Part shown: positions 37,744 through 58,755 of the stretch, piece by piece
Position numbering within the stretch: the stretch's first letter is position 1
Layout: every line of letters starts with the position of its first letter
Assembly (NCBI GenBank): GCA_947650285.1
Contig: CANTFL010001211.1
Coordinates: 310,001 to 374,000 of the forward strand
Source: Hyaloperonospora brassicae
Taxonomy: Eukaryota > Oomycota > Peronosporomycetes > Peronosporales > Peronosporaceae
Reading direction: 5' to 3'
Length of the DNA: 64,000 nt
Notes under the pieces: model-generated
Seen by the model: only the letters and a program-made list of their open reading frames with translations
Told to the model about the DNA's origin: nothing
Database searches by the model: none
Position numbers and translations under genes: made by a program

Positions 37744-38262
37744 TCCCCAACTGTCGAGCGCTACAAGGTACTTCCCATCACGTACAAGTCACACGTGTGT
37801 GCGTGTTGTGAATCCTGTGAGAAGCAGGACCTGCGTTACTACGTCTTCAATGACCGGATCTGCTCGTGTACGGTGCGCAGCCTGCCCATGGCAGCCAGGC
37901 ACCGATCCCTCCTCAGTCTTCCCAACATTTATCACCGCAGCAAGAGTACACTAGCCCTAGCAACTACGATAACGACGAGCCCTCGAGTGATGACGAAGCG
38001 AGTGGCAACGTCGACGAGCGGCAGATATTAGCTTCGGCTATCTTTGACGACATTTCCGGGGCACCGACCCCAATGCCCGCGGCTCGACGCGTCGGGCCGA
38101 ACGCACGCTCCATGATTACTGCTACCCGTTGAACAAGTCATACTTCCACGCGTCGTGCATCGAGCCGAGGCGACTAGCAGCAGCAAACTCCTATAACCCA
38201 CGTCTCGACGGAACAAGCTCCGCCTTTGCAACAACATCGCGCAAAGGTCGAAAGGGATCTGC
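37744..38262 (+). pseudogene. Left part of an unrecognised host gene split by element B
   Basis: Protein-like sequence VERYKVLPITYKSH, CACCESCEKQDLRYYVFND (Cys-rich, about 37745-37860) is followed after a frame change by a Gln/Pro/Ser-rich stretch from 37866 (SSQHLSPQQEYTSPSNYDND, RQILASAIFDDISG) and, past two in-frame stops (38130, about 38175), QAPPLQQHRAKVERDL at the LTR edge. The other side continues at 46245. Family not recognised; the Cys cluster could be a broken zinc-binding module. Confidence 0.5.
38258..38262. repeat. Target-site duplication of element B, left copy (TCTGC)
   Basis: TCTGC directly precedes the LTR and is repeated directly after the other LTR (46245-46249). A five-base duplication is usual for Ty3/Gypsy integration. 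Confidence 0.85.
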
Positions 38263-38654
38263 TGTAACGGGGCACACCCTTGCGTGAACTTAACGCAAGG
38301 GTATCGGTGCCCCGACAGACGTACACGAGGCGAACGAGGAAGCGTAGGATAAGGAAAAAGTAAAACTGTTATATTAATATAATTAAGTCTTTTTGCTACT
38401 GTCTCTCTGTTTGACTTAACTTAATTATGCTAATATACCTGAGTGTATGGTGACGTCTCGTCAACACTCATTGCGCGCGTCTTGCGGCGATTGGTGGGTT
38501 GATATCATCAAGATATCAACCAATGAACAGACTCTTTGGTCGACCCTTCAATATCACCACTTCGGTGATATTGTTTAAAGAATATTCAACTTCATATTCT
38601 TAATTGTCACTTTCCTTATAGTGACAATTCCATGTAACGGGCTGCCCCGTTACA
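38263..38654 (-). repeat. 3' LTR of element B
   Basis: 392 bases, TGTAAC...GTTACA. It contains a series of hairpins: ACCCTTGCGT/ACGCAAGGGT (38276-38302), GTTGATATC/GATATCAAC (38498-38520), CAATATCACC/GGTGATATTG (38549-38573), AATTGTCACT/AGTGACAATT (38602-38629) and TGTAACGGG/CCCGTTACA (38633-38654). Confidence 0.93.
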
Positions 38655-38670
38655 TCACCCCCCTTAACTG
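38655..38670 (-). other. Polypurine tract of element B
   Basis: On the minus strand, AAGGGGGGTGA lies immediately upstream of the 3' LTR, the usual site of plus-strand DNA priming. Element C has AAGGGAAGGGTGA in the same place (54132-54144). Confidence 0.75.
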
Positions 38671-38736
38671 ATTGTCACCGTGTGACTATCGAAAATATGG
38701 CGGCTACCCGTTTGGCACCATTGGGACAGGAAGCAC

Positions 38737-40388
38737 TTGTTGGGTCCGTTCCATTCACTTTCCGCTCGACCTCGCATAGTTAACATGTCTATGCGGGGTG
38801 ACTTAAGGCACACAGAGTCTGTGCCTGTGCCAGCTTCTGCGGCTGACGATTCGTCGTCTGCTGCTCGTTCTTCACCTGCAGCAAGAGGTGCTGCAGGTGC
38901 ACGCGGTACAGCACCGCGTGCGCATGATGACCCCGACATTGAGGTCATCTACTCTGGCGAGTCAGACGTGTCTGACTCGGGCAATGCTGCAGAGGCGTCT
39001 CGATCACCGGCGACGCCTCAGTGTTCGCCAAGGCCACTGCCGAACGAACGGACTCGTGAGTTGCAACACAGTCTGTTCGGCAGTGATGACGAATTTGGTG
39101 ATGAGTATGTTTGCTCATCACCGCAATCAGCTCGTGCTCCTTCGCACAAGCGACTTGACGATGGTGCAAGCCATCGTCATACTGGCAATTGTGATACCAA
39201 CAAAGGTACCACCGTGAAGCGTGATGAGCTGAAGCCGTGGCGTTTTCCCGAACGGCTCATCAATGGCTTGTCTCACGAGACAAGCCAACACCATCGAATA
39301 CCCTTATTCGATGCGACTGAGCTTCACGGATTGAGTCCCAGCGCGAGCAACTTTTGCGCTGAGGAAGACTTTTATCTCGATGTCTTTCTTAGACATCGAT
39401 GTACAACAGCAACCAAAAGCGTGACAAAGCCTCGCTTTTGGCTGCGTGGAACGCGTTCGTCCAAAACGTGAAGAATTTTGGACGAGAAGGGTGGCTCAAG
39501 AAACTTGAGGCGACACGCCTCAGGTTCGAAAAGCGAACGCCAACCGGTGCCAGGTACCGGTCGCACTTTTTGTCGAGTGAGGCAGGCATTCCTTGCCTCA
39601 CATGGGGAGACCCTTGTGCGAGTTGTGTTGACAACTCGCAGCGTGCACATAGGGACGTGTATTCCCTAAGTTCGCCCTGGGGAAGGGCACACATCTCGGA
39701 GGAGATGCGTGACGCGATAGCAAACTTGCAATCCGTCTACAAGCGCCTAGGGCGCGTGTTTACCGATGGAACCGAGGACCTATCGGATGGGTCTCGTCAT
39801 ACTGGCGGACGAGACCTTCAACATCTATCAGCAGCTAAGATCGGGGCTCCCAGCTGTTCCAAGAGGGTGGATACCCCCGTCACTGGACGAGGTAGCTCGT
39901 CCTTGATCCTGAATCGTCACGGTGGTTCAAGATACGCCCCACTAGGAAGCGTTGATCACCGTGAGCATCCACCAAAGGATGTAATGGAGGAGGAAAGACC
40001 TCCTCCAGATGATTCGGTTCACCATGTCGACCCTTACGAGATGGATCGCGCAATCGATAAATTGCGCGATGACTTAAAGCACGAGCGCGACCGGCGCTAC
40101 GCTTTGACCGATACCGTGCGGAAGAACCGCAAGGATTACGAGGCTGATCGAGCGAGGGATCACGCCGATTATGCCACAGCGCAGCTTCAGGTCGAGCGGG
40201 ATGTTCGCTCCCTATTCGGCGAGCTGTCGACAGCTCGCGGGGAGATATCTCGGTCGAGTTCCGAGGTATCATATCTGCGCGACCAGACGGATCGTCTGGA
40301 GCGCGAACGCAAGAACTTGATGGATGTTCTTGAACGTGGGGGCTATCTTCATCGGAAGAAGAAGGCTCGTACTGACAGTACGGCCTGA
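38737..40388 (+). CDS. Antisense ORF of element B (two overlapping frames)
   Basis: Opposite to gag-pol, between pol and the 3' LTR. The first frame (38737-39471; likely start [10 protein letters not shown] at 38785) is Ser/Ala-rich and acidic with [17 protein letters not shown]. The second (39399-40388, 329 residues) has [17 protein letters not shown], the Cys-bearing block [20 protein letters not shown] and a charged coiled-coil C-terminus (about 40040-40365, [18 protein letters not shown]). A one-base frame change joins them. The counterpart in element C (52483-54032, minus) has the same order of parts: [20 protein letters not shown] and a coiled coil ending KNLLLILECAGY. The segment 39761-40010 lies opposite the chromodomain of pol, so that stretch could be only a shadow, but 38737-39760 is beyond the end of pol. 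Function unknown; plant Tat-lineage Gypsy elements also carry antisense ORFs here (established), with no homology recognised. Confidence 0.6.
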
Positions 40389-40737
40389 GTAGCCTCACGT
40401 AAAACGTAGGATGCGTGCGCATCTTACGTGGCAATTTGAGTGTGTATGCATTGCCCTTGCGATGCAACACTCGAAATGGCCCAATGTACTTCGGCAGTAT
40501 TTTACTACTGCCGACACTAGTGACTGCATGTCCAGGTAAGTTTACCGTAGAAAGTAGTTTTAGGTCGTTAATTTTATATGAAAGAACATTTGCTCTTCCA
40601 TTCTTGTCTGCATTCTGTTTCTGACGGTCCACCGCATTTGCGATGGAGTCCTGAACGAAACGGACTACCGCTTCTCGATTCAGCAGGAAGTTATCTCCTG
40701 ACTCGTTGTTTTGTCTTTCAGTGCGCTTCGTGAGCAC
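39760..40737 (-). pseudogene. Integrase C-terminus (GPY/F module) and chromodomain, element B
   Basis: The frame from 40737 has NREAVVRFVQDSIANAVDR, INDLKLLSTVNLPGH, and KYIGPFRVLHRKGNAYTLKL (the GPY/F module). After a long low-complexity linker comes a chromodomain: [20 protein letters not shown]...YLVQ, a TGA in place of the expected Trp, [12 protein letters not shown], then [13 protein letters not shown] and a TAA at 39760-39762. Chromodomains direct integration to particular chromatin. It overlaps the antisense ORF. Confidence 0.75.
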
Positions 40738-40739
40738 TG

Positions 40740-41420
40740 CTAAGAGATTGTTCTCTTCTTCAGCGAGGTTGTCTTCTTCCTCGCTGGCATAATCGTTGAC
40801 GATGCTGAATATACCAGCATCGTCATCATCATCCGAGTCAATAATAGCGTCATCGCTATTATTGAGGTGATTTTATTCATCGATGTCGACTTGATCGACA
40901 ACGGCATCATACGTGACGACGTTAGCGTCGACACGTGATGAGCAAGAGCCAAAACGGTTTTTGCTCGAGCGAGTCCCTCCCCCCTTATCCAAGAGTTACA
41001 CTCTATAAGGGTGGGCACTCGTGGATGGCGTAGGCCATTCACGTAAAACGGTGTGTGCTGCGTTGAAGCATGCACCGAATTATTGATGGCGAATTCCACC
41101 ATGGGTAGGAATTCGCTCCAACTCGGAAATGAGGGGACATATCCTCGAAGGGTCTCTTTGAGGACACGGTTCGCACATTCCGTCTGACCATCTGTTTCGG
41201 GATGGTCAGAAGTAGACATCTTCAATCGTGTTTCAAGAGAACGGAACACGGTTTGCCAAAATTCCGCCGTGAACCGAGGGTCACGGTCGGATACGAGTTC
41301 ACGGGGCAACCCGTGGAGTTTAAAGACCGTGTCAAGAAATACACGAGCACAACCTTGAGCCTTGATCGACTTGGGGACAGCAGCAAGATAAATCATCTTG
41401 CTGAATCGGTCAACAAACAC
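40740..41420 (-). pseudogene. Integrase catalytic core, element B
   Basis: DDE-type core: VDRFSKMIYLAAVPK, SDRDPRFTAEFWQTVF and HPETDGQTECANRVLKE carry acidic residues at the catalytic positions, then MVEFAINNSVHASTQHTPFY. It is frame-shifted from the H2C2 part upstream and degrades after about 40980. Confidence 0.8.
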
Positions 41421-41607
41421 AAGAATACCATTATTCTTGTGAGCGTCTTCGGGAAAGCCGAATACGAAGTATTTCTAAAACGGACTGCCAGCACTCTGTC
41501 GGAACAGGCAGAGGCTGCAATGGCGCACGGGATGAAGGACTAAACTTCACCCGTTGGCAAACCTCGCAAGCGCGTATGTACTTGCGTGCAAACTGATACT
41601 GGCGTGG

Positions 41608-41904
41608 CTAGTAAAAGTCACTACTTACCGTGAGGTAGGTCTTTTCTCTACCACGATTTCCGCCTATTGGGGCATCGTGACACTCATACATTATGCGTAA
41701 AGGCAAATCATGATGAGCGGGTACGACGACACGAGGCGTGTCGTCAGCAACAGCTGTATAGTACAGCAGGCCATTTCGAGTCGTATACCGATCTAACGAG
41801 GAACGGTACAGAGCCGGCAAATCCGACAAGGATTTACGGGATGGGTTCGAAAGGTGACCCATCAAACGAAGGAAAATCGTGTCTCCTGCGTATGCCTTCC
41901 GCAC
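41608..41904 (-). pseudogene. Integrase H2C2-type N-terminal region, element B
   Basis: SDLPALYRSSLDRYTTRNGL, then CHDAPIGGNRGREKTYL. The second His of the zinc-binding motif is Asn, in both B and C. A stop follows at DFY. Confidence 0.7.
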
Positions 41905-42471
41905 GTCATCAAGTTAACTTGACGACGGGACACTGACTGTCAGTGTCGCAACAGTGAGCAAGTTTTCACTGTTGATTTGTGCGTCCGGCTCGAAATCGGG
42001 CCGGCGCGAAAGCGCATTAGCGACGACATTGAGTCGTCCTGGTTTTTACTCCTCGGAGAAGTGATACTCCGCGAAGAAAGACAGCTACCTCGCCATTCTT
42101 TGCGAGAGTTGTGGGCTGTTTACGGCCGTGCGTAATGACGTATGGTCCGTATAGACAACAAACGGTCTATCTCCGAGGAGATAGACGCGAAACTTAGCCA
42201 GTGCGTGCTTCATGGCAAGGAGTTCCGTAACATGCACTGGGTAATTGCGTTCAGCTGGTCGCAGCTGACGCGATTGATCTCAGTCGACGCGCTCTGCGCC
42301 GTCTGTGTCATACTGCATTAACGCACAGCCGATTGCAAAATCGCTGGCGTCACAGACCACATGAGAAGGTCTGTCCTAATCCGCAATCGCCAAGATCGGC
42401 GATTGTATCGAGCTTTGCTTGATACCCTCAAAGGAACGCTGGCACTCAGCGTTCCATGACCACTTGACGTT
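41905..42471 (-). pseudogene. RNase H region, element B, multiple stops
   Basis: On the minus strand, in one frame broken by at least five stops: HVVCDASDFAIGCALMQYD, QLRPAERNYPVHVTELLAMK, HALAKFRVYLLGDRPFVVYT, PGRLNVVANALSRRPDF. This is the RT-linked RNase H of Gypsy elements (DASDFAIG, ELLAMK, YTDH). The stops are identical in element C. Confidence 0.8.
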
Positions 42472-43254
42472 TTAATTGAGCAAGCAAGAACGATGAACAG
42501 TCATCTCGGCGTAGTTGCGCGAGTACTTGTGCAAGTACGCCGCTAAACCAAGGAACTTCCTTAGTCCCTTGACATCGACTGGCACTGGCCAATCGGTGAT
42601 CGCCTTGATCTTTTCGGGATCAGGGCGTACGCCGTGTTTACCCACGATACACCCAAGAAGTGGTAGTTCGCTAGCCGCGAATATACACTTCTTGAGGTTG
42701 GCATACAACTTATGCTTGCGCATAAGTTGAAGAACCTGACAAACGCGAGTTCTGTGAACTTCAACGTCCGACTTTCCGTCCATAGCCCGGCTATGGACGA
42801 ACACATCGTCGAAGTAACTCGGTGCGAAGTCTCGCACCGGTCTCAACAGATTTGTGACACATCTGTCGAATGTTGCAGGGGCATTGCTCAGCCCCTGTGG
42901 CATTACTAGCCACTCCCACAGCATACCGCTGGGGGTGCTCACTGCTGTGTACGGTATGTCCCGTTCACGCATGAGGATCTGATAGAATCCATCCATCAGA
43001 TTCATGGACGAAAAGATGGTACTCTTTGACATACCATCTATGATTACGTCCTTCCTCGGTATCGGCGTCTGAGCCGGTACCGTTGCAGCATTCAACTTGT
43101 TGAACGCGTGCACTATCCGCCATCCTCCTGGGGCCTTTCGCACACAGAAGGTCGGAGATCTGTGAGGGGAAGTTGATTCCCGCACATGGCCCGCTGCTAA
43201 GCGATCGGCAAAGAACTTGTCGATCGCTAGTTCTTTACACGAGGCAGTGGCCAA
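42472..43254 (-). pseudogene. Reverse transcriptase core, element B
   Basis: A 260-codon open stretch with PTFCVRKAPGGWRIVHAFNK, VPAQTPIPRKDVIIDGM, LMDGFYQILM, MPQGLSNAPATFDRCV and SYFDDVFVHSRAM; YFDD is the RT active-site box. At its start the frame shifts relative to the preceding linker and at its end a TAA follows CLLN. Both lesions recur in element C. Confidence 0.9.
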
Positions 43255-44045
43255 TGCTTCATGACACAGTACTTCGAGCCCGGCTTGAGCTCGATCTCGT
43301 GTCGAGTGTATTTGTCCTTAGGCAACTCGCAAGGCACGGATTCAGGAAACACATCCCTGAATTCAAACAAATCCTTGTACAAAGGATTTTCCTGGAGCGA
43401 CTCCCAGGATTGAGACGTGTATCGCTCAATCCGAGTCTTCTCATCGAGGACACTTTCGTTCATCGATGAGCTGCTGAGAACCCGTTCGTTCTCAGCAAAT
43501 ACTGTCGCCGACCGAATATCGGCCACATACTCATCCTCTGTGACGAGTATGCAGATCTGCTTGACTTTGCCACTGCGCAGATCACGCAAGAATCGTTTCG
43601 GTTCTAGCGTTGTCAACTGAGTTATCTCAGAAGTTATCTTCGAAGGCACAATCAGATCAAGCGTATAAGCGCCTACGCTTGATCCGTCATGAACCAAGAC
43701 GTTCAACGTCTCGGTTTCTTCCTGGGAACTTGCTTCCACAGGTTGCTGAAGGCCTGATCCCTCAGAAAGTGACTCTTGAGGAATTCCTTCCTCAAGTACG
43801 TGGGGACTTATTCCCTCGACGTCTTTTAAATGTGGCTGTGCAACCACAGTCAGGGACCGATCCTCCACGGTCGACTCTCCAGTCGACCTAGGATTTCCAT
43901 GTTTCCCCTTGAAGGCAACAGGTTTCTTTCTTCTAAGATGCTGCCCGCTAGGCATGCATCCATGTCCCGGTCCACTCGACTTATTCGAGTGGTGGACCTT
44001 CGGCGCAGCCTGTACTCCTGTACAGCCGCCGGGAGCTTGCTCCAC
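43227..44045 (-). pseudogene. Protease-RT linker and RT N-terminus, element B
   Basis: Same frame as the protease, after stops near 44181. It ends KYCVMKHWPLPRVKN and a TAG; in intact Gypsy elements the WPLPR word runs straight into RT, so the real junction is a frame change at about 43230-43250. At 44043-44069 lies a hairpin with 11-base perfect arms (CACAGTGTAGT / ACTACACTGTG). Confidence 0.75.
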
Positions 44046-44180
44046 AGTGTAGTGATCAACTACACTGTGATCTTGTGCAGTCGTGCTAACGACCGTAACT
44101 CAAGTGAGGCCATCGCACTCACTCGCAGAACATCCACACGCTTGTGGACGCTCCAAGATGTTCATCAGATGGCTATCTGA

Positions 44181-44603
44181 TTAACAAGCGGCAGGCATCT
44201 TCACGGATCGATGCTGCCAGCTCACCCTTGGCTCGTACTTTCTGAGCCAAGGTAATCCCAGGATGACATCAAATTTGTCATCCAGATCCAGTACGATGAA
44301 GTCATCATCGTACTGTTCGCCCTCCAACGTGTAGTGGATTTCGATTACACGTTTCTCAACGGTTATCGATGCGCCTGTTGCAAGGCGCACCGTCATCCTC
44401 GTGAGGGGAATGTCGCGCTCAACTAACTTGAGCCTACGACCCTCTAGTGACTGGCGACGAAATAAGTTGTTCGACGCCCCACAGTCTACTAGGGCACGAA
44501 GCGACAAATCATTTGTCGCTTCCAACTTCAAGGTGATGAGCGAAAAGTCATCACCAGGTGCAGAGACACACAATGATTGTGTATCTGGAGCAACTTTCGC
44601 CAA
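44181..44603 (-). pseudogene. Aspartic protease, element B
   Basis: Retropepsin-like: LRALVDCGASNNLFRRQSLE (active-site Asp with CGA in place of the usual T/S-GA), MTVRLATGASITV, FDVILGLPWLRKYEP. DCGA is also present in element C. A stop closes the frame at PAAC. Confidence 0.8.
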
Positions 44604-44757
44604 AAGATTTGCAAATTATCTTGAGGTTGCTGGATCAGTAGGGCGCTCTGCCCCTACTGACCCCGACCTTTATATATGGTACGTCTCGCTGTTGCGGCTT
44701 CGAAACAGCGCTGGACCCACGCCCATTGCCCTTCTTGGCGAATGGTCGTCCATTTCG

Positions 44758-45807
44758 CTAAGTGCTGTTCGGTACTGGGCGTGGAGCACTACACTCGTAT
44801 GCGTAGTGCCCTATCTTCTGACAGCGATTGAACCTCTGCAATCGCTTGTTGTTTGTAGAGCGAGGTCTCTCGCTCTCAACATAGCAGAGGTCTATTGGTT
44901 CTGGACCGCCGATCGCATGTCGTCTCGGTGGACGGTAAGAGTTTGAGCTAGCATGAGCCTGTCTCATGCTAAAGTCTTCCTGTTCCGCGGCTCATATCGC
45001 TTCTTCCAGCGTTTTCAGCTTAAGGCGGAACAGGTGGCTCCTGACGGGCCCTTCTGCTAGCCCTTGCATGAACACCGTAATCAACGTGTGTTCATAAACT
45101 GGGTTAGCAGTTATACTACTCGCTAGGAGTCGTATATGTTGTGCGTAAGCGTGCACATCACGCTTACCCTGCTTGAGTTTCAGGAGCTCAGAACGAGCCC
45201 TGAATTCAGCTCGTGGCGGCTCAAACGTTTGTCTGAGCCGGGACTTGAAGTCATCTAGCGACCTAAACACATTTGGGTCGCTACTCTCGAGTCCCAAGGA
45301 CCAAGTTTTGGCACGCCCTGCCAAGTGGGTCTGAGAAAATGTGAGTTTCATTTGCTCATCTTCGACGCGACGAGCCCTTAAGGATCTGTAGAGTTCGACA
45401 AACCATAGTAACAGGGAGTCCTCCGGGACTCCACTGTACTTGGAGATGTCAACCTTCATGACCTCGGGACGACGCGCATGTGCCGTCCCGCCCACAGCAG
45501 CGTGGAATTGCTGCTGTCTCAACAGCTCTGTCTGTTGAGCACTGAGTTCTCTCAACTGCTCGGCCTGTTGAGAGCCTTGCTGGTGAAGCAAGGCTACTTT
45601 CTTCCTTTCGGCGACAAGTTCACTTTGGATGAACTTGGCTATAGCGGCATGTTGTTGGTCTCTGTCTAGAGACTCCAACATGGCGCTAATGGCGAACTCG
45701 CCTACGGTAGAACTCATTCGTTCTACCGCACCCCATTCGATGTCACTCAAATGGGTAAACCCTTCACGCGTGGCGTGAATGGTCTCTTCATCATCCAATA
45801 TGAACAT
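44758..45807 (-). pseudogene. gag with zinc-knuckle remnant, element B
   Basis: From MFILDDEETIHATREGF; Retrotrans_gag segments LAGRAKTWSLGLESSDPNV and LKQGKRDVHAYAQHIR, then an in-frame TGA at 44992-44994 after LEEAI. The same frame continues AAEQEDFSMRQ... to RFNRCQKIGHYAYEC. This is a CCHC knuckle whose first Cys is Phe, also true in element C. It ends at 44758; the protease is in another frame. Confidence 0.8.
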
Positions 45808-45833
45808 GTTGGATGCTGTGGTCCTTGGAAGGA

Positions 45834-45849
45834 CTACAAAGTGCTACCA
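45834..45849 (-). other. Primer-binding site of element B
   Basis: Minus strand TGGTAGCACTTTGTAG, two bases after the 5' LTR end, as in elements A and C. Confidence 0.7.
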
Positions 45850-45851
45850 GG

Positions 45852-46244
45852 TGTAACGGGGCACACCCTTGCGTGAACTTAACGCAAGGGTTTCGGGTGC
45901 CACGACAGACGTACACGAGGCGAACGAGGAAGCGTAGGATAAGGAAAAAGTAAAACTGTTATATTAATATAATTAAGTCTTTTAACTACTGCCTCTCTGT
46001 TTGACTTAACTTAATTATGCTAATATACCTGAGTGTATGGTGACGTCTCGTCAACACTCATTGCGCGCGTCTTGCGGCGATTGGTGGGTTGATATCATCA
46101 AGATATCAACCAATGAACAGACTCTTTGGTCGACCCTTCAATATCACCACTTCAGTGATATTGTTTAGAGAATGTTCAACTTCATATTCTTAATTGTCAC
46201 TTTCCTTAAAGTGACAATTCCATGTAACGGGCTGCCCCATTACA
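45852..46244 (-). repeat. 5' LTR of element B
   Basis: 393 bases, same terminal words and hairpin series as the 3' LTR. About ten scattered differences from it, for example a broken stem base in TTCAGTGATATT near 46150. Confidence 0.93.
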
Positions 46245-46551
46245 TCTGCGGAATGTCTCATTTGGCGCGCCTGCAGCTCCACAAGGCCTAGTTGCGTTCC
46301 AGCAGCCACGGCCGCCACTAGAGCACCACCAGCCGCAGATAATGGCACCGCAAGAGAAGCAACACTTGACGATGTACGCAGACTCGTTTGGAATGGGCTT
46401 TCCGCTTCCACCCGCGCGTGTTCCCGATAGCGTCTCGCCAGCTGCTTCTATCGATCCTTTCTACAGCACAATGCCATACTTAGTTATAGCTGCAAAACAA
46501 GACGATTCAATCGAGGCACGATGGGGGCTGGTAGGCTATTTCGAATGTTAA
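46245..46551 (+). pseudogene. Right part of the host gene split by element B
   Basis: Starts with the TCTGC duplication (46245-46249). If the element and one TCTGC are left out, the reading frame on the left (KVERDL) passes without a shift into RNVSFGAPAAPQGLVAFQQP, then PPLEHHQPQIMAPQEKQHL and PARVPDSVSPAASIDPFY, ending in TAA at 46549-46551. Gln/Pro-rich like the left part. Confidence 0.6.
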
Positions 46552-46862
46552 CCTTAGGCACAAAAGGTCCAAACATGTATATTAAACGCACTTGATGCCA
46601 TTTTCTGTGCACTTGCTGCCGTCTCGCTCTCCCGTCGTGTAGCGAAAAGGTTCAAGTTGGCGCAAGTATAACCAGAACGGAACAGAACAGTTTTTGTTGG
46701 AGGAATCGACGGCGGCGGCCTTTACGCTCCGATCATGAAGTAGTCACACGGTGGCCGTTCGTGACAAAACTTCCGAGATTTGCCGAGTTAGCATGAGAGG
46801 CGTGGAATACGACCAGTTGAGACGTGTACAACAACATGCGAACGGACGAGAGAGAGCAAATG
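46552..46862. other. Spacer between elements B and C
   Basis: Probable 3' flank of the split gene; no coding sequence seen. GCAAA at 46856-46860 matches GCAAA at 54587-54591 and is the likely target-site duplication of element C, with two extra bases (TG) before the LTR. Confidence 0.5.
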
Positions 46863-47303
46863 TGTAACGGGTAGCCCGTTACATGAATATTGTCTTCAAG
46901 AAGAAATTGACAATCGAAAATGTTACGTTGAATATTCTTTCAACAATATCACAGAGCATGATGATATTGTTGAAGATGGGCGAATGGTCTACTCATAGGT
47001 TGATATCGCGATGATATCAACCCACCAATCGCTGCTAGACGCGCGCAATGGGTGGTGAGTAGACGTCATCATACATTTAGTTACATTAGTGTAATAAATT
47101 CAGGACAAACAGAGATACAAGAGTTATATGACTCAATTGTATTAATAACAGTTTTACTTTCCTACGACCAGAGTCTTTCGCTTTAGTTGTTCTATCTTCC
47201 TCTGTGTAGTTCCACACCTAGCTGGGCACTGACTATCACTACAGTCAGTGATAGTAAACTCCGTACTGGTTGGCCAGTACGGAGTCGTCGGTGCCCCGTT
47301 ACA
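46863..47303 (+). repeat. 5' LTR of element C
   Basis: 441 bases, TGTAAC...GTTACA. Hairpins include GTTGATATC/GATATCAAC, ACTATCACT/AGTGATAGT (47232-47255) and ACTCCGTACTGG/CCAGTACGGAGT (47258-47285, 12-base arms). Confidence 0.93.
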
Positions 47304-47305
47304 CC

Positions 47306-47321
47306 TGGTAGCACTTTGTAG
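47306..47321 (+). other. Primer-binding site of element C
   Basis: TGGTAGCACTTTGTAG, two bases after the LTR, identical to that of element B. Confidence 0.7.
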
Positions 47322-47359
47322 TCTGTCCAAAGACCACAACTCCATCGCCTAACATTAAC

Positions 47360-48484
47360 ATGTTGGACAATGTAGACGGCGACAGATTTTACGAAACCCG
47401 TGAAAGCTACTCCAATTTGAGTGACATCGAATGGAGTGCGACCGGACGTGGAGTTTGCCCGTTGGCGAGGAAGCCATATGGGCCATGCTATCCTCAAGGG
47501 ATAGGGACCAGCAACATGCCGTCATTATCAAGTTCTTGCAACGAGGACTTGATGAGTCGCGAGCTCAGGTGACCTTGTTACAAAGACAAGATCACCAGCG
47601 GACCGAAGCACTTAGACAACAACAATTTCAGTCCGCAGAGCCGACGCGTGAGCGTCGACGAGAGTAATTAATACTAGAGTACTCCAAGTATCGAGAAGTC
47701 GAGGAAGACTCCCTGTAAAGATGGTTCGTCGAGCTGGACGATGCCATCGATGCTCGTCCCATCGATGATGAGCGAACGCAAGTTGCATTCGCTCAGTCGT
47801 ACATGACTGGGGACGCCAGGAATTGGGCCCTGAATCTCAAGTTGCACGACCTAAACGCGTTTAGGTCGTTGAGGATCTTTAAGCCCCTGCTCAGCGAGAC
47901 GTTTGAGCCGCCCAGATCAGAGTTCAGGACTCTTTCGGAGCTTCTGCAAATCAAGCAGGGTAAGCGTAAGGTTCACGATTACGCTCAGCACGTACGCTAC
48001 CTTGAAAGCTGCCTGGTAGTGAACCCTGTGGGTGAATTTGTGTTGATCACAATATTCATTAAAGGGCTGTCCAATGGTCCCGTCAGGGACCACCTGTTCC
48101 GCGGAGATCTAAAGACGCTCTACGAAGCAATCTTTGCTTCGGAGCAGAAAGACTTTAGCGTGAGACACTACGCTGACCCCCTTTCGTCCGCAGAGACGAT
48201 CAGCGGTCGGACTTCCAGAGCCAATGGACCTCTGTAATTTTAAGGGCGAGAAATCTCGCCCTGCGAATGACAAGCGATCGGTAAGATTTCGTCGCTGTCA
48301 TAAACTGGGACACTACGCATATGAATGCAGTATCCCCCGCTCAGGACCTCGCGATGCTGAGCGCAGTAATCGTCCACCAGTAAGAAGAACTGGAGGGCGA
48401 GGGTCCGATGCTGTTGCAAAGCCGCAACAGCGAGACGGACCATATAAAAAGGTCGGGGTCAGTAGGGGCGGAGCGCCCTACTGA
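47360..48484 (+). pseudogene. gag with zinc-knuckle remnant, element C
   Basis: Starts MLDNVDGDRFYETRESY, matching the start of gag B, then shifts frame near 47450 and again before TGDARNWALNLKLHDLNAF (47806). KQGKRKVHDYAQHVRYLES is the gag core. The knuckle RFRRCHKLGHYAYEC lacks the first Cys as in B. Confidence 0.8.
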
Positions 48485-48515
48485 TCCAGCAACATCAAGA
48501 TAATTTGCAAATCTC

Positions 48516-48896
48516 TTGACGAAGGTTGCTCCCGACACGCAGTCTTTGTGTGTCTCTGCACTTGGTGATGAGGTGTCTCTCATCACCTTGATATTGGAAG
48601 TGACAAAGGACTTGTCACTTCGCGCCCTAGTTGACTGTGGGGCGTCGAACAATTTTGTTCGCCGCCAGTCGCTAGAGGCAGGAAGTGTCAACTTCGTGGA
48701 GTGGGAGATCCTTCCAGCGCGAATGACGGTGCGCCTAGCGACAGGCGCATCGATCACTGTGAAGAAATATGTAATCGGAATCCACTGCACGTTGAAAGAT
48801 GAACAGTACGATGATAATTTCATCGTACTCGACCTGAATGACAAGTTTATTGTCATCCTGGGAATATCTTGGCTCAGGCGATACAGCCAAGGGTGA
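48516..48896 (+). pseudogene. Aspartic protease, element C
   Basis: LRALVDCGASNNFVRRQSLE with the same DCGA active-site box as B, MTVRLATGASITV, ILGISWLRRYSQG, then TGA. Contains the stem GAAGTGACAA/TTGTCACTTC (48597-48621), which differs from B by a compensated pair. Confidence 0.8.
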
Positions 48897-49610
48897 GCTG
48901 GCAGCATCGATCATTATCGATGCCTTAACACTTTTTCATCAGATGACGATCTGAAGAATATCTTGAATCGCCCATGTTCATGTGGGTGTACTGCGAGTGA
49001 GTGCTATGGCCTCACTTGCGGTACGGTCGTTTGTACGACTGTGCAAGAACACAATGTACATGATTACAACATTTCGGAGAAAGCTCTCGTGGATCCCATG
49101 GATGTGACTTCCCAGTAAATAATCCAGACAGTGAACGTCTTGGTCAATGACGGATCAAGCTTGGGAGCTTACACGCTTGATCTGGTTGCGCCTCCGAAGT
49201 TAAATTCGAATATAATTCAACTGCCAACGCTAGAACCAAAACGATTCTTGCGTGATCTGCGTAGTGGCAAAGTCAATCAGATCTGTGTACTCGTCGCGGA
49301 GGACGAGTACGCTACCGATATTCGATCGGCAACGGTGTTTACTGAGACCATGAGGGTACTCAGCAGTTCATCGATGAACGAAAGTGTCCTCGATGAGAAG
49401 ACTCGGATTGAGCGATACACGTCTCAATCCTAGGAGTCGCTCCAGGAAAATCCTTTGTACAAGGATGTGATCGAATTTGAGGATGTATTCCTCGAACCCG
49501 TGCCTTGCGAGTTGCCTAAGGACAAATACACTCGACACGAGATCGAGCTCAAGACGGGCTCGAAGTACTGTGTCATGAAGCATTGGCCACTGCCTCGTGT
49601 AAAGAACTAG
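48897..49610 (+). pseudogene. Protease-RT linker, element C
   Basis: Includes the open stretch 49131-49433 (LNVLVNDGSSLGAYTLD-type sequence, PKRFLRDLRSGKVNQI), a TAG at 49431-49433, then KYCVMKHWPLPRVKN and a TAG at 49608-49610 exactly as in element B. Confidence 0.7.
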
Positions 49611-50365
49611 CGATCGACAAGTTCTTTGCCGATCGCTTAGCAGCGGGCCATGTGCGGGAATCAACTTCCCCTCACAGATCTCCGACCTTCTGTGTGCAAA
49701 AAGCCCCAGGAGGATGGCGGATAGTGCACGCGTTCAACAAGTTGAATGCTGCAACGGTACCGGCTCAGACGCCGATACCGAGGAAGGACGTAATCATAGA
49801 TGGTATGTCAAAGAGTACCATCTTTTCGTCCATGGATCTGATGGATGGATTCTATCAGATCCTCATGCGTGAACGGGACATACCGTACACAGCAGTGAGC
49901 ACCCCCAGCGGTATGCTGTGGGAGTGGCTAGTAATGCCACAGGGGCTGAGCAATGCCCCTGCAACATTCGACAGATGTGTCACAAATCTGTTGAGACCGG
50001 TGCGAGACTTCGCACCGAGTTACTTCGACGATGTGTTCGTCCATAGCCGGGCTATGGACGGAAAGTCGGACGTTGAAGTTCACAGAACTCGCGTTTGTCA
50101 GGTTCTTCAACTTATGCGCAAGCATAAGTTGTATGCCAACCTCAAGAAGTGTATATTCGCGGCTAGCGAACTACCACTTCTTGGGTGTATCGTGGGTAAA
50201 CACGGCGTACGCCCTGATCCCGAAAAGATCAAGGCGATCACCGACTGGCCAGTGCCAGTCGATGTCAAGGGACTAAGGAAGTTCCTTGGTTTAGCGGCGT
50301 ACTTGCACAAGTACTCGCGCAACTACGCCGAGATGACTGTTCATCGTTCTTGCTTGCTCAATTAA
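49583..50365 (+). pseudogene. Reverse transcriptase core, element C
   Basis: 260 codons, differing from element B at only about two residues (an R/Q near PTFCV and an N/D in SSM(N/D)LMDG). YFDD box present. Same upstream frame break and same downstream TAA. Confidence 0.9.
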
Positions 50366-50932
50366 AACGTCAAGTGGTCATGGAACGCTGAGTGCCAGCG
50401 TTCCTTTGAGGGTATCAAGCAAAGCTCGATACAATCGCCGATCTTGGCGATTGCGGATTAGGACAGACCTTCTCATGTGGTCTGTGACGCCAGCGATTTT
50501 GCAATCGGCTGTGCGTTAATGCAGTATGACACAGACGGCGCAGAGCGCGTCGACTGAGATCAATCGCGTCAGCTGCGACCAGCTGAACGCAATTACCCAG
50601 TGCATGTTACGGAACTCCTTGCCATGAAGCACGCACTGGCTAAGTTTCGCGTCTATCTCCTCGGAGATAGACCGTTTGTTGTCTATACGGACCATACGTC
50701 ATTACGCACGGCCGTAAACAGCCCACAACTCTCGCAAAGAATGGCGAGGTAGCTGTCTTTCTTCGCGGAGTATCACTTCTCCGAGGAGTAAAAACCAGGA
50801 CGACTCAATGTCGTCGCTAATGCGCTTTCGCGCCGGCCCGATTTCGAGCCGGACGCACAAATCAACAGTGAAAACTTGCTCACTGTTGCGACACTGTCAG
50901 TCAGTGTCCCGTCGTCAAGTTAACTTGATGAC
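50366..50932 (+). pseudogene. RNase H region, element C, multiple stops
   Basis: Same remnants as B (DASDFAIGCALMQYD, AERNYPVHVTELLAMK, PGRLNVVANALSRRPDF) and the same stops: TAA after CLLN, TAG in GCGGATTAGGAC, TGA in GTCGACTGAGAT, TAG in GCGAGGTAGCTG, TAA in GAGGAGTAAAAA. Confidence 0.8.
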
Positions 50933-51919
50933 GTGCGGAAGGCATACGCAGGAGACACGATTTTCCTTCGTTTGATGGGTCACCTTTCGAACCCATCCCG
51001 TAAATCCTTGTCGGATTTGCCGGCTCTGTACCGTTCCTCGTTAGATCGGTATACGACTCGAAATGGCCTGCTGTACTACACAGCAGTTGCCGACGATACA
51101 CCTCGCGTCTTGGTTCCCGATCATGATGATTTGCGCTTACGCATCATGTTAAAATGTCACGATGCGCTCTCAGGCGAAAATCGTGGTAGAGAAAAGACCT
51201 ACATTACGATCAGTCGTTACTTTTACTGGCCCCGCCAGTATCAGTTCGTGCGCAAGTACATTTGTTCTTGCGAAGTCTGTCTACGGGTGAAGCCTAGTCC
51301 TTCATCCTGTGCGCCACTACAAACTCTGCCGGTCCCGGCAGAGTGTTGGGAGTCCGTTTCCATGGACTTTGTCTTCGGGTTTGTCGAAGACTCTCACAAG
51401 AATAATGGTATTCTTGTGTTTGTGGATCGTTTCAGCAAGATGGTGCATCTTGCTGCAGCATCTGAATAGATCACTGCACACGGCTGTGCGCGTGTCTTCA
51501 TCGACACAGTGCTTCGACTCCACGGTTTACCCCGTGAGCTCGTGTCCGACCGTGACCCTCGGTTCACGGCGGAGTTTTGGCAATCCGTGTTCCGCACATT
51601 GGGAACACGGTTGAAGATGTCCACATCTGAACATCCCGAAACAGATGGCGAGACGGAACGTGCAAACTGTATCCTCGAAGAGATCCTGCGAGGATACGTC
51701 CACTCCTTTTCGAGTTGGAGTGAGTTCTTGTCGATGGTCGAATTCGCCATCAACAACTCCGTGCATGCGTCCACGACGCATACATCGTTCTACGTGAATC
51801 GCTTACGCCACCCACGTATTCTCGCCCTCATACAGAGTGACTCTAGGTTAGGGGGGAGGGACTCGCTCGATCAAAACCCGTTTAGGCTCTTGCTCATCAC
51901 GTATCTTTGCACATGTTGA
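50933..51919 (+). pseudogene. Integrase H2C2 region and catalytic core, element C
   Basis: First frame to 51469: CHDALSGENRGREKTYITI, then CSCEVCLRVK (zinc-binding Cys pair), SMDFVFGFVEDS and VDRFSKMVHLAAA, then TAG. Second frame from 51509: SDRDPRFTAEFWQSVF, HPETDGETERANCILEE and MVEFAINNSVHASTTHTSFY. The three acidic catalytic positions are present, split over two frames. Confidence 0.8.
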
Positions 51920-52094
51920 TACGTTTGATGTCGATGTCGATAATATCGACATCGAAGAATATGATCTTAGCAATAGCAATGACGCTGCTGCTACTTCAGA
52001 TAATGATGTCTATGCTGGTATATTCAGCATCGTCAACGACAATGCCAGCGAGAAAGAGGACACCCTCGCTGAAGAAGAGAAGAATCTCTTAGCA

Positions 52095-53045
52095 GTGCGC
52101 ACAAAGCGCACTGAAAGACAAAACAACGAGTCAGCAGATAACTTCCTGCTGAATCGAGAGGCGGTAGTCCGTTTCGTTCAGGACTCCATCGCAAATGCGG
52201 CGGACCGCCATAAACGGGACTCAGACAAGAATGGAAGAGCAAATGTTCTTTCATTTAAAGTTAACGACCTAGTACTACTGTCTACAGTAAACTTACCTGA
52301 ACATATAGTCACTAATGTCGGCAGTAACAAATTACTGCCGAAATACATTGGATATTTTTGTGTATTGCACCGCAAAGGCAACGAATACACGATTGAGTTG
52401 CCTCGCAGGATGCGCACACATCCTACGTTTTGTTTTGGTCGTCTCCGTCCGTTCTATCAGAACGATACCTCTCTCGAGAGCATTAATAACCAGCACATTC
52501 AAGAATCAGCAGCAGATTCTTGTGATCACGGACCAAACACGAGAGTTGGTCCTTCAGCGACGCGGTCTCGCGGCGAGCCGCGTTCAGCTCGTCGCGCAAA
52601 CGGTGCTTCTCGCGTTCGCTCTCAAGTTGAAAGAACGCGAAATCCGATCGGTCTTTTTCCTCACAGTCGGCACGGAGACGTCGCACGTTCGACATGAAGT
52701 CGTGCTGACAATCGTGTTCGTGATCGACTTCCTCCCTCAACTAGGTCAGGTAACGTTCATGGTTACCCAAAGTCTCATGCAGGCCCAGCAGCTGAGTCGA
52801 CCCTTGTCTTTCCACCACCACCGGAGCCACCAGTAAATTTACACGGTGGCCGACGCTTACACGTGGGGCGTATCTTGAGCCACCGCGTGAAGAACGGGAA
52901 GCGGACAAGTTACCTTGTCTGCTGGAGTGGGTATCTACCATCTTATGACAGCTGAGAACCTCGATCCCACCTGGTGGCTGATGTTGAGGGTCTCGTTCAC
53001 CAGTACGACGAGACTCATCCGATGAGTCCTCGGAACCATCGGTAA
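52095..53045 (+). pseudogene. Integrase C-terminus and chromodomain, element C
   Basis: NREAVVRFVQDSIANAADR, NDLVLLSTVNLPEH and KYIGYFCVLHRKGNEYTIEL (GPF has become GYF). After the linker and a frame change, from about 52811: RRLHVGRILSHRVKNGKR, SYLVCWSGYLPSYDS, a TGA for the expected Trp, EPRSHLVADVEGLVHQYDE, and a TAA at 53043-53045. Overlaps the antisense ORF. Confidence 0.75.
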
Positions 53046-54032
53046 ACACGCGCTTTTGGAGCTTGTCGACGGATCGCAAGTTTGCTATCGCGTCACGCAT
53101 CTCCTCCATGATGTGTTCCCTTCCCCAGGGCGAACTTAGGGAATACACGTCCTTATGTGCACGTTGCGAGTTGTCAACAAAACTCGCACAAGGGTCTCCC
53201 CAAGTGGGGCAAGGAATGCCTGCCTCACTCGACAAACGATGCAGCCGGTACCTTGCACGGGTTGGCGTTCGCTTTTCCAACTTGATGTGTACCATCTCAA
53301 GTTTTGAAGTCATCCTTCTCGTCCAAAATTCTTGTCATTTTGGACGAACGCGTTCCACGCCGCTAAAAGCGAGGCCTTTTCACGCTTTTGGTTGATGTTG
53401 TACATCGATGTCGAAGAAAGCATCGAGATAAAAGTCTTCCTCAGCGCAAAAGTTGCTCGCGCTGGGACTCAATCCGTGAAGCTCACTCTCATCGAATAAA
53501 GGTATTCGATGGTGTTGGCTTGTCTCATGAGACAAGCTATTGCTATGCTGTTCAGGCAAAAGCTACGACTTCAGCTCACCACGCTTCACGGTGGTACCTT
53601 TGTTGGTACCACGGTTCTCAGTATGACGACAGCTCGCACCATCGTCAAATCGCTCGTGCGGAGGTGCACGAGTTGATCGTGGTGATGAGCAAACATACTC
53701 ATCACCAAATTCGTCATCACTGCCGAACAGACTGTGAACATGTCGCGAGTCCGTGCAATAGGCACGTATCTTGATGGAAGAGGCACCGCAGGTGAACACG
53801 ATCTCTTTAAAGGCTTTTCCGAGTCAGACACATATGACTCACCAGAGTAGCTGACCCTTAACTCGAGGTCACTGTGTGCATAAGGTGCTAAACCACATGC
53901 GCCTGCAGCAACACCTGCTGCAGGCTGAGAACAAGTAGCAGACGACGAGTCGTCTGCCGCAGAGGGCGGCGCAGCAACATGTTGTGTCGTCTTTGGGTCA
54001 CCCCGCATAGACATGTTAACTATGCGAGGCAA
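52483..54032 (-). pseudogene. Antisense ORF of element C, in three frames
   Basis: Counterpart of 38737-40388. First part 53586-54032 (start MSMRGDPKTTQHV at 54014); middle part 52741-53313 with [20 protein letters not shown] and [20 protein letters not shown]; last part 52483-52740, a coiled coil with EREKHRLRDELNAARRE. Frame changes separate them. Conserved order and words in two diverged elements argue that the antisense product was once real. Confidence 0.6.
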
Positions 54033-54131
54033 AGTCAGAATGAATGAATGAGACCAAAAAGTACTCCCCGTCGCGTTAGTATCCAGCGGGTGACCACCAA
54101 GTTTTCGATAGTCACACGGTGACTATCAGAT

Positions 54132-54144
54132 AAGGGAAGGGTGA
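54132..54144 (+). other. Polypurine tract of element C
   Basis: AAGGGAAGGGTGA immediately before the 3' LTR. Confidence 0.75.
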
Positions 54145-54586
54145 TGTAACGGGGTAGCCCGTTACATGAATATTGTCTTTAAGAAGAAATTGACAATAGA
54201 AAATGTTACGTTGAATATTCTTTCAACAATATCACAGAGCATGATGATATTGTTGAAGATGGGCGAATGGTCTACTCATAGGTTGATATCGCGATGATAT
54301 CAACCCACCAATCGCTGCTAGATGCGCGCAATGGGTGGTGAGTAGACGTCATCATACATTTAGTTACATTAGTGTAATAAATTCAGGACAAACAGAGATA
54401 CAAGAGTTATATGACTCAATTGTATTAATAACAGTTTTACTTTCCTACGACCAGAGTCTTTCGCTTTAGTTGTTCTATCTTCCTCTGTGTAGTTCCACAC
54501 CTAGCTGGGCACTGACTATCACTACAGTCAGTGATAGTAAACTCCGTACTGGTTGACTTGTACGTAGTCGTCGGTGCCCCGTTTCA
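54145..54586 (+). repeat. 3' LTR of element C
   Basis: 442 bases, nearly identical to 46863-47303; ends CCCCGTTTCA in place of CCCCGTTACA, and the 12-base hairpin near the end is disrupted. Confidence 0.93.
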
Positions 54587-54591
54587 GCAAA

Positions 54592-55614: not shown

Positions 55615-56060
55615 TGTGATAGGGCACGCCTTGTGTCAATTCAACACAAGGTTGCGTGCACCCGACGTCAGTACACGTGGCGCGAGGAAGCGCAGCGAAG
55701 TAGGCAGAACTCGAAAGTTCTGTCTGAGGGAACAAGCAGAACTGTATTTCATATAGTTATGTTTTCTAAATAAAGCATCTTTTGTCTTGAGCTAACCATA
55801 TTAAACTACAATCTACTATGTGGGTTTCTTGCTCAACACCGTTGCGTGCGTCCAGCAGCAGTTGGTATTTATTCTGGTTGATGTACTGTGAACATCAACT
55901 ATCAGGTGGAGCAACCGATCAAAGAAATATTAACCTCGAGGGTAATATTCCTTCAACCTTACTGCTTACGAGCAATGTCAATTGAGCATTATCTAAATAG
56001 ATAATGCTCAAAATTGATACAAACATATCAATTTTAATGTAACGGGCTCACCCCGTTGAA
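55615..56060 (-). repeat. Solo LTR of the same superfamily, diverged
   Basis: Starts TGTGATAGGGCACGCC and ends ATGTAACGGGCTCACCCCGTT, the two ends of the LTR pattern. Inside is CCTTGTGT/ACACAAGG in the place of the first hairpin of the B LTR. No internal retroelement sequence adjoins it on either side. No clear target-site duplication. Confidence 0.65.
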
Positions 56061-56104
56061 GTGCACCTTCTGAGCACTACATATCGACGCTGAACGATAT
56101 TCAC

Positions 56105-58350: not shown

Positions 58351-58755
58351 CTTCCTTTCACACGTTGCAGTCATTAAATAGTCAGAGAGATACAGCACAT
58401 CATAGGGTTGGACCAAATACATAACAGAGCAAGTCGACCGACGTACCTACGCACCTTATTATGTAATGTCTGATTTTCACATGAACCTTCCTATTACACG
58501 TTGCGGGCATTAAACAAACAGTTAAATACAGCACATCATAGGGTTTAATCAGATACATTACAGAGCAAGTTGACCGACGTACCTACACACCTTATTATGT
58601 GTTGTCTGATTTTCACAACAACCTTCCTTTTACACGTTGCGGGCATCAAATAGTCAGCGAGATACATCACATCACAGGGTTTAACCAAATACATAGTAGA
58701 GTCAGTCGACCGACGTACCTGCATACCTAATTGTGTGGTCTCTGCAGCACAAAAT
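58351..58755. repeat. 136-bp tandem repeat, about three copies
   Basis: Units begin CTTCCT at 58351, 58487 and 58623, a constant period of 136. Shared words: TACACGTTGCGGGCAT, CACATCATAGGG, AGTCGACCGACGTACCT. Copies differ at scattered sites. A second small pair, TCACGTGCA...AAATTAACAT, follows at about 58796 and 58844. Confidence 0.85.

Follow-up and report, generated by a model that had tools for sequence, protein, structure and literature searches.

The genome-scale ordered RNA structure (GORS) of persistent positive-strand RNA viruses has been proposed to help them evade detection by the host. As outlined in PMC3695492 and PMC7566573, GORS is a structure of genomic sense RNA with folding energy far beyond that of shuffled sequences throughout the coding sequence, and such an energy is also seen in the elements described here; these, however, are retrotransposons and not positive-strand RNA virus genomes, and they carry discrete perfect hairpins of 8–11 bp, fold equally well as antisense and do not tolerate G-U pairs. 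Short hairpins in LTR retrotransposons are represented by the LTR palindromes of maize Sireviruses (Copia), which, at least in the summary of Bousios 2016 given in PMC10760457, recur as a motif in the LTR cis-region and form clusters tied to small RNAs, whereas here differing stems run through LTRs, gag and pol. By protein family, the elements belong with the oomycete chromodomain Ty3/Gypsy retrotransposons, and a Pol of Peronospora effusa, compared as protein only, is 85% identical. A literature search, judged mostly from listings, yielded no publication describing hairpins along the whole length of a Ty3 element, and no DNA relatives outside the Hyaloperonospora brassicae genome were found in the viral-contig and genome-contig collections searched.

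The window analysed comprises 64,000 nt of H. brassicae (GCA_947650285.1, contig CANTFL010001211.1, positions 310,001–374,000 of the forward strand) and contains two decayed, hairpin-packed members of a lineage of chromodomain Ty3/Gypsy LTR retrotransposons in this Peronosporaceae oomycete. Element B (38263..46246, minus strand) is flanked by LTRs that are 97.2% identical, at 38263..38656 (its own 3' end) and 45852..46246 (its own 5' end), and holds an RT open frame at 42472..43254 (minus strand; Pfam RVT_1, E 1.2e-22). Element C (46863..54583, plus strand) represents a second subfamily within the same lineage, with a 5' LTR at 46863..47300 and a 3' LTR at 54145..54583 (98.2% identical), an RT open frame at 49583..50365 (RVT_1, E 3e-24), an integrase zinc-binding part at 50933..51469 (Integrase_H2C2, E 1.2e-15) and an SH3_Tf2-1 part at 52095..52697 (Pfam, E 4.1e-9). 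The two elements share 94% identity across 2,261 nt of pol, and the LTR pairs of B, C and the copies L061–L064 are 96.7–100% identical. In the young copy L062 the domains follow the Ty3 order (Retrotrans_gag, Ty3_capsid, RVP_2, RVT_1, RT_RNaseH, Integrase_H2C2, rve), with a chromodomain at the integrase end (Chromo, E 1.2e-13, in a 411-aa frame) that is present in L083 and L084 as well. A solitary LTR-like repeat at 55622..56057 (minus strand), itself hairpin-rich, belongs to a further subfamily, relatives of which occur elsewhere as pairs about 7.8 kb apart; the interior of one such pair, L085, has a pol 77% identical in amino acids to that of L062 (RT) and 10 inverted repeats per kb. Thirty RT loci, B and C among them, were taken as the top-ranking protein matches out of 147 scored from 5438 candidates and thus lean to intact copies. 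Rfam gave no match across 38000–57000.

Inverted repeats (IRs) were counted as perfect repeats with arms of at least 7 and loops of 2–20 unless stated otherwise. Element B holds 106 IRs (13.3/kb) and C holds 91 (11.8/kb), against 76 in the 47,679 b of the window outside them, 43 in the 32 kb of the host stretch 5001–37000 (1.34/kb) and none in the 616 b separating B from C. At arms of at least 9 and loops of at most 10, for which a sequence-only reading of the window had put random expectation at one per 23.8 kb, B has 49 where 0.34 are expected and C has 35 against 0.32, while the host 32 kb has 1 against 1.34 and the window outside B and C has 3; the excess claimed by that reading is therefore borne out, and is greater than it had supposed. 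Its proposal that the stems are spelled by synonymous codons also held: in 200 synonymous-codon shuffles each that keep the protein, the 11 IRs of the C RT fall to 1.24 (maximum 4) and the 10 of the B RT to 0.99 (maximum 4), whereas the host genes, as it had supposed, stay near shuffle level (USP7 5 versus 4.8, KDM5 3 versus 5.0, the AMP-binding gene 5 versus 2.9). Density in B and C is thus above both the shuffles and USP7 and KDM5, and folding against shuffled controls agrees, with a mean z of −5.9 in L062, −4.1 in B and −3.3 in C and about 0 in two host genes. The hairpin excess in B and C is far beyond chance and codon constraint; codon, mononucleotide and dinucleotide shuffles, together with the roughly 1,350 genomic places that share one of the hairpins, rule out chance, composition or an annotation artefact, which we regard as vanishingly improbable.

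The nine hairpins quoted in the sequence-only reading were all found letter for letter at their positions. In the RT of C they include CGTCCATAGC-cgg-GCTATGGACG (50038..50060, plus strand), which has about 1,350 genomic matches at up to 3 mismatches, CAACTTATGC-gcaa-GCATAAGTTG (50108..50131, plus strand) and CGGTGCGA-gact-TCGCACCG (49998..50017, plus strand), and in B the pair CACAGTGTAGT / ACTACACTGTG (44043..44069, minus strand), which is shared with L062. Of the eight hairpins quoted from C, at least six have a counterpart at the homologous position of B; because B and C are related, the hairpins quoted from the two are not independent. The 3' LTR of C has a 13-bp hairpin (54222..54257, plus strand) that is present unchanged in the 5' LTR (46939–46974). 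Counting non-overlapping hairpins with arms of at least 6, overlaps being settled longest first, the median spacing is 45 in B, 50 in C and 37 in L062, so that the asserted interval of 25–40 bases is generous for the two window elements and right for the young copy, in which 54% of the sequence lies within hairpins.

Four other copies of the lineage carry 17.5–18.5 IRs/kb along the element, B and C being decayed, and binned counts in L061–L064 show the array ending at the element boundaries. Perfect stems of 8–11 bp with loops mostly of 3–10 nt occupy LTRs, gag, pol and tail of the 8-kb element. Among 60 listed stems of L062, spread from LTR through gag to pol, the stems differ by eye and no recurrent palindromic motif confined to an LTR cis-region was seen. 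Arm and loop length are negatively correlated, a trivial effect of inward pairing.

Hairpins are not a habit of every retroelement in this genome, as far as sampled, and the contrast with a sister lineage carries the point. In that sister Ty3 lineage (L068, L074, L077) the RT has 0, 0 and 1 hairpins per kb, and two distant Ty3 places are likewise poor in them (C898, with 0 IRs in 1.0 kb of L069 and 0 in 1.5 kb of L086; C139, with 1 in L070); other Ty3 elements were sampled at these five places only. Among 18 one-kb pieces, the eleven from L068-type, distant RVT_1 (L069–L071) and Copia elements hold 0–2 IRs, and five Copia pieces are at background level. Thirty further RVT_1 loci (L031–L060) have 0.26–2.38 IRs/kb, equal to background; since tblastn gives no match to the L062 pol in any of the 30 and an Exo_endo_phos endonuclease adjoins the RT in four of the eight scanned, we take them for non-LTR-type elements. 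The L068-type sister recurs although hairpin-poor, with same-score places bearing frames of up to 1606 aa (three retrieved), and hairpins are therefore not needed to multiply.

Stem conservation was assessed with stems called in the outgroup copy L003 and variants common to at least two of 25 main-group copies, L001–L005 being excluded from the main-group counts as other subfamilies or decayed. Shared variants occupy 7/874 stem, 21/368 loop and 76/2232 other positions, and at fourfold-degenerate sites 2/146, 5/49 and 31/376, respectively. Stems thus evolve several-fold more slowly than loops, at fourfold sites too and with outgroup-called stems. Fourfold-site change is graded with predicted pairing (.014,.051,.105,.148), and in the non-coding 3' end of L062 compared with L061 the rates are.044 in stems,.188 in loops and.139 elsewhere. 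The sequence-only reading had offered two explanations, selection for a folded genomic RNA and template switching, and conservation at fourfold sites makes selection, the first half of the former, likely.

Quasi-palindrome correction, in which a reverse transcriptase switching templates rewrites one arm to match its partner, would produce inverted repeats without mismatches, and both the perfect Watson-Crick arms and single cases with one arm differing at several places (L014 2943–2975 versus L003) are in keeping with it. Its signature of one-arm changes and paired doubles at a neutral pace is not seen, however: differences are even between arms and not above the null in six comparisons (p 0.42–0.91), and in the non-coding stems of L062 versus L061 a single Watson-Crick double was observed where about 25 paired doubles are predicted under neutral correction (.139 × 182 pairs). 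These two results lead us to reject template switching as very improbable.

A mutational ratchet without selection, whereby paired bases mutate less in the replication cycle, chance pairs freeze and hairpins accumulate, is in keeping with the spread of differences across both arms. It is further favoured by an excess of singletons in loops (25/368 versus 70/2232 at other sites), which selection does not predict, and it too would predict the greater density of hairpins with arms of at least 9 in non-coding sequence (16 in 1,115 b versus 39 in 4,017 b of pol). At arms of at least 7, however, coding sequence is as dense as non-coding (pol 18.4 and gag 17.7 IRs/kb; 3' non-coding plus LTR 21 in 1,115 b), and fourfold-site singletons are not reduced in stems (6/146 versus 18/376 at other sites). 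Arm length also speaks against the ratchet, which should give a geometric tail: lengths peak at 8–10 bp and further extension is near chance. In L062 the chance of gaining the next pair is 0.69–0.85 for the sixth to ninth, 0.55 for the tenth, then 0.26 and 0.20; in L083 it is 0.66–0.81 through the eighth, then 0.35 and 0.11. GC moreover declines as the arm lengthens, offsetting it (rho −0.31 in L062, −0.29 in L064), and we consider the ratchet unlikely.

Under a common cut-off of arms of at least 7, hairpin energy is −12.8 kcal/mol in L062 and −12.2 kcal/mol in L083 (Mann-Whitney p 0.31). As modelled, two lineages unlike in arm length and GC thus share a similar hairpin stability of about −12.5 kcal/mol; the common cut-off, and an energy spread in L083 hardly narrower than random (3.17 versus 3.41), weaken this point. 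The hairpins themselves turn over. L083 and L084 keep 8 of 46 and 12 of 28 against 0–1 in slid controls, whereas L062 keeps 0 of 67 with L083 (2 of 33 in reverse) and 1 of 66 with L084 (2 of 19 in reverse), and sister lineages accordingly carry largely different hairpin sets. Compensatory doubles are scarce, with four pairs among the 8 L083 hairpins that L084 retains; taken across every projected pair, they do not exceed slid controls (20 versus 48–57, the controls being unpaired at the outset). The codon-phase class with only third-third flexibility is depleted in L062 (10 versus 31 and 28), a depletion absent in L083 (17/16/15) and L084 (8/10/10).

Selection on a sense-RNA fold, serving packaging, stability or translation control in the manner of genome-scale ordered structure in RNA viruses, is consistent with the very strong folding of the sense RNA (mean z −5.94 per 150-nt window in L062) and with conservation graded by pairing. 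The antisense strand reaches −5.65, however, and windows show no sense/antisense difference in five copies of the lineage (Wilcoxon p 0.69–0.95), although one 1-kb stretch is 6% more stable in sense. Nor is G-U tolerated over A-C: stem changes led to G-U 98 times and to A-C 105 times, against 645 and 654 in the non-stem control (p 0.76). Decayed B and C supply 159 of these 203 stem changes; the other three comparisons give 18 G-U and 26 A-C, and B alone leans to G-U (31 versus 22, p 0.10). On the sense strand, L062 loops are enriched in A (.31 versus T.234), a hint of RNA polarity that favours the sense-RNA fold and counts against strand symmetry, and loops of 0–2 nt are rarer than those of 4–5 nt, which likewise suits that fold; by eye and by count, no GNRA/UNCG preference and no evident loop motif appeared, which speaks against this fold and against loop-recognised packaging signals. 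Equal strand energies and G-U changes no commoner than A-C disfavour a sense-RNA fold alone, an unlikely account in our judgement, and the proposed selection for genomic RNA folding is not supported as a complete account.

Strand symmetry would also follow if the hairpins were selected at the DNA level, in single-stranded cDNA or extruded cruciforms, where they might protect or compact minus-strand cDNA or steer reverse transcription, since G-T and A-C mismatches both destabilise DNA stems. In stems, G-U, A-C and transversion changes are similarly reduced, as both this explanation and the ratchet would have it, and the array spans the whole element, LTRs included. The A-rich sense loops and the absence of hairpins at the five other Ty3 places weigh against it, and Ty3 cDNA is not known to require hairpins of this kind; we regard it as fairly unlikely.

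Taken together, the data argue that purifying selection probably acts on strand-symmetric Watson-Crick hairpins, rather than through a sense-RNA fold alone or template switching. Both strands of the element nucleic acid would then have to be self-folded, with selection acting on that property. Most likely, folded sense RNA would resist antisense RNA and small RNAs, hindering dsRNA formation, Dicer entry and Argonaute targeting, while each stem would stay too short for dicing. We put forward only tentatively the whole reading, a strand-symmetric hairpin tiling under selection that resists sense/antisense pairing in RNA silencing; within it, silencing resistance as the purpose is possible rather than probable. 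It retains, for both strands alike, the escape from silencing that the sequence-only reading had raised. According to PMC3804510, Phytophthora 25-nt small RNAs arise mainly from transposable-element loci, which is in keeping with such a purpose, and in P. infestans the highest yield of small RNA per Mb came from inverted repeats; in the account of PMC10760457, small RNAs in maize are drawn to structured parts of TEs. The P. infestans and maize patterns are the opposite of shielding and count against silencing resistance. A version in which single siRNAs self-fold is weak, as only 16% of L062 25-mers fold to −8 kcal/mol or better (2.5–4% in two non-LTR loci, 2.8% in USP7). More doubtfully still, the synonymous sites may hold a structural code of equally stable hairpin beads on both strands, foldable yet undiceable, a generic armour without protein or motif, with possibly more than one origin in closely related elements; stretches of up to 162 nt in L062 without a perfect hairpin of arm at least 6 count against such armour and against the reading as a whole.

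If selection on strand-symmetric hairpins is the correct reading, the synonymous sites of an entire 8-kb coding element would be constrained by the need of each strand to pair with itself, a constraint shaped differently from the RNA structure known in viruses. Neither codon usage nor synonymous rates would then measure neutrality in elements of this kind. Sister lineages with many and with few hairpins coexist in one genome and provide natural matched controls, so that a protective effect of nucleic-acid folding against the silencing of a transposon by RNA becomes directly testable.

Elements B (38263-46246, minus strand) and C (46863-54583, plus strand) are LTR retrotransposons that lie with their 5' ends head to head, 616 bases apart, across 38263-54583 of the window. 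Together they form a large inverted repeat, with 2,261-nt arms in pol that are 94% complementary; a transcript reading through it would itself yield long double-stranded RNA. In the 100.6-Mb assembly (898 contigs), B belongs to the subfamily of the copies L061-L064 (92.5-95% identity), and C to a different one (about 88% in the pol core, 76-82% in the remainder). Open relatives encode a 396-aa gag with Retrotrans_gag and Ty3_capsid, a 1339-aa pol comprising protease, RT, RNase H and integrase, plus a 411-aa frame that contains SH3_Tf2-1 and Chromo, and are therefore chromodomain Ty3/Gypsy elements. SH3_Tf2-1 and Chromo occupy their own frame overlapping the pol end in L062 (5778-7010), and are fused into a single long frame in the sister lineages L083 and L084.

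The sequence-only reading had described B and C as packed with serial short hairpins, and all nine hairpins it quoted are present. Perfect inverted repeats (IRs; arm at least 7, loop 2-20) number 106 in B and 91 in C, against 76 in the remaining 47.7 kb of the window and zero in the 616 bases separating the elements. Codon shuffles retaining the protein and codon pool (200 per sequence) gave far fewer IRs than observed in L062 pol (74 vs 5.6, maximum 15), L062 gag (21 vs 2.2, maximum 7), C RT (11 vs 1.2, maximum 4) and B RT (10 vs 1.0, maximum 4), bearing out the suggestion that the stems are spelled through synonymous codons. As had been noted by eye, host genes of the window have no counterpart (USP7 5 observed vs 4.8 shuffled, KDM5 3 vs 5.0, AMP-binding gene 5 vs 2.9). 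Density is higher in other copies, at 17.5-18.5 IRs per kb over the whole of L061-L064, dropping to 0-2 per 500 bases in their flanks, and 15.7-18.9 per kb in the 28 RT-centred loci L003-L030; B and C are therefore decayed versions.

Among 18 one-kb pieces of retroelements in this genome, four of the same lineage hold 11-17 IRs per kb, sisters at 67-69% amino acid identity 4, 10 and 4 (L066, L067, L072), and sisters at 65-67% 0, 0 and 1 (L068, L074, L077). The remaining eight (three distant RVT_1, five Copia) have 0-2 each, a further 1.5 kb of the distant Ty3 element L086 has none, and 30 non-LTR-type loci (L031-L060) have 0.26-2.38 per kb. Whole pol again exceeds codon shuffles in L083 (50 vs 7.1) and L084 (32 vs 6.7). 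One RT hairpin was matched at about 1,350 genome places (at most 3 mismatches; 1349 forward and 1351 reverse, the pattern being near-palindromic). Within the window, a solitary LTR-like repeat of a third subfamily (55622-56057, minus strand) carries its own hairpins, with 7 IRs (arm at least 7) in about 440 bases, one a 14-bp stem; its relatives elsewhere in the genome are paired, about 7.8 kb apart. A lone 13-bp perfect hairpin outside B and C, CGACGCACGACCG/CGGTCGTGCGTCG, lies at 14436-14466, and a 136-base unit at 58350-58757 occurs in three tandem copies (85% and 78% identity to the first). In protein comparison, the window's USP7 scores highest with Peronospora matthiolae (79%, with 82% of the query covered), ahead of P. 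effusa (67%) and of Phytophthora species at 66-68%, which places the host among the Peronosporaceae oomycetes.

Non-overlapping hairpins with arms of at least 6 number 185 in L062 and take up 54% of its 7,985 bases; loop lengths peak at 4-5 nt, 0-2 being rarer, with little excess beyond about 40. For L062 stems with 3-10 nt loops, the chance of extension is 0.69-0.85 for pairs 6 to 9, 0.55 for the tenth, then 0.26 and 0.20; in L083 it drops past 8 bp (0.35, 0.11). L083 arms are shorter (8.07 vs 8.81 bp) and GC-richer (0.66 vs 0.55) than those of L062, and mean hairpin energies are -12.8 kcal/mol in L062 (SD 3.0; 4.1 for random stems of equal lengths and GC), -12.2 in L083 (SD 3.17; random 3.41) and -11.5 in L084. 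Longer arms are AT-richer in L062 (rho -0.31) and L064 (rho -0.29), with no such trend within L083 (rho 0.08). This pattern of arm length and energy reads as a stability threshold, with the caveat that the energies share the cut-off of arm at least 7.

Stems called in the outgroup copy L003 were projected on 25 main-group copies (L006-L030). Variants that two or more of these have in common were found at 7/874 stem, 21/368 loop and 76/2232 other sites, and at 2/146, 5/49 and 31/376 fourfold sites, respectively. The fourfold shared rate climbs as predicted pairing weakens, from.014 in stems to.051 at other paired,.105 at intermediate and.148 at unpaired sites, and is.102 in loops. Singletons were about as frequent in stems (21/874) as at other sites (70/2232); in loops they were in excess (25/368 sites; 9/49 fourfold), as if these were mutation hot spots. 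The non-coding 3' end behaves similarly, with difference rates in stem, loop and other sequence of.044,.188 and.139 between L062 and L061, and.149,.382 and.315 between L062 and C. Between L062 and C both sides were altered in 52 of 1,043 pairs, 32 of which became another Watson-Crick pair. An exception is C vs L003, with no stem reduction at fourfold sites (stem 21/172, other 29/348; stems called in L014), perhaps because the divergence of that decayed pair is mostly post-insertion decay. The suggestion that template switching copies one arm onto the other finds no support: differences were divided evenly between arms in 6/6 comparisons, and neutral correction predicts about 25 paired doubles in 182 non-coding pairs, where 1 was found.

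RNAfold (150-nt windows, 20 dinucleotide shuffles per window) placed B and C beyond shuffled controls on both strands. Mean z, sense/antisense, was -4.13/-4.05 in B, -3.33/-3.31 in C, -5.94/-5.65 in L062, -5.89/-5.89 in L064, -5.65/-6.06 in L061, -2.14/-2.11 in L083 and -1.30/-1.25 in L084, compared with -0.34 to 0.21 in two non-LTR loci and two host genes; no paired strand difference in these windows was significant. A selected fold of the sense genomic RNA, also proposed earlier, is disfavoured as a full account by this likeness. Such a fold should moreover tolerate G-U, yet single stem changes in five comparisons gave G-U 98 and A-C 105 (non-stem control 645 and 654; p 0.76), 159 of the 203 coming from decayed B and C and the other three comparisons giving 18 and 26. 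In its favour, sense-strand loops are A-rich, which counts against strand symmetry; one 1-kb stretch, folded in a single piece, came out 6% more stable in the sense orientation (-487.8 vs -460.3), a difference that the windows do not reproduce. The elements are alike in effect to genome-scale ordered RNA structure but lack its sense-strand feature, and are therefore not classed with it.

L062 and L083 hairpin positions coincide little more than by chance (centres at most 1 nt apart, 4 vs 1.4 expected, p 0.056; at most 6 nt, 6 vs 7.1). L083 and L084 have 10 centres in common (0.6 expected), and, allowing a single miss, projected hairpins remained paired in 8/46 cases from L083 to L084 and 12/28 in reverse (slid controls, 0-1); some hairpins are therefore old within that pair. 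Kept hairpins include compensatory changes, for example GTTCTTGG/CCAAGAAC to GTTCCTGG/CCAGGAAC and GGCGCGAG/CTCGCGCC to GGCGCTAA/TTAGCGCC. Between L062 and either sister only 0-2 among 19-67 were kept, so the L062 array is largely different, through either separate gain or complete turnover. The element type is already known; the hairpin trait is described in none of the papers that the literature searches listed.

The data are best read as purifying selection that keeps both strands able to fold into hairpins, with stability that would be sufficient rather than maximal; selection at the cDNA level and a mutational ratchet are live alternatives. Under purifying selection on both-strand folding, sense-antisense annealing would be a process requiring both strands to be folded, and small RNAs of about 25 nt are described as made from transposons in Phytophthora (PMC3804510). 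With a hairpin every 40 bases along each strand, and individual stems remaining short, duplexes would form more slowly and targets would be harder to reach, and this may be the purpose of the hairpins.
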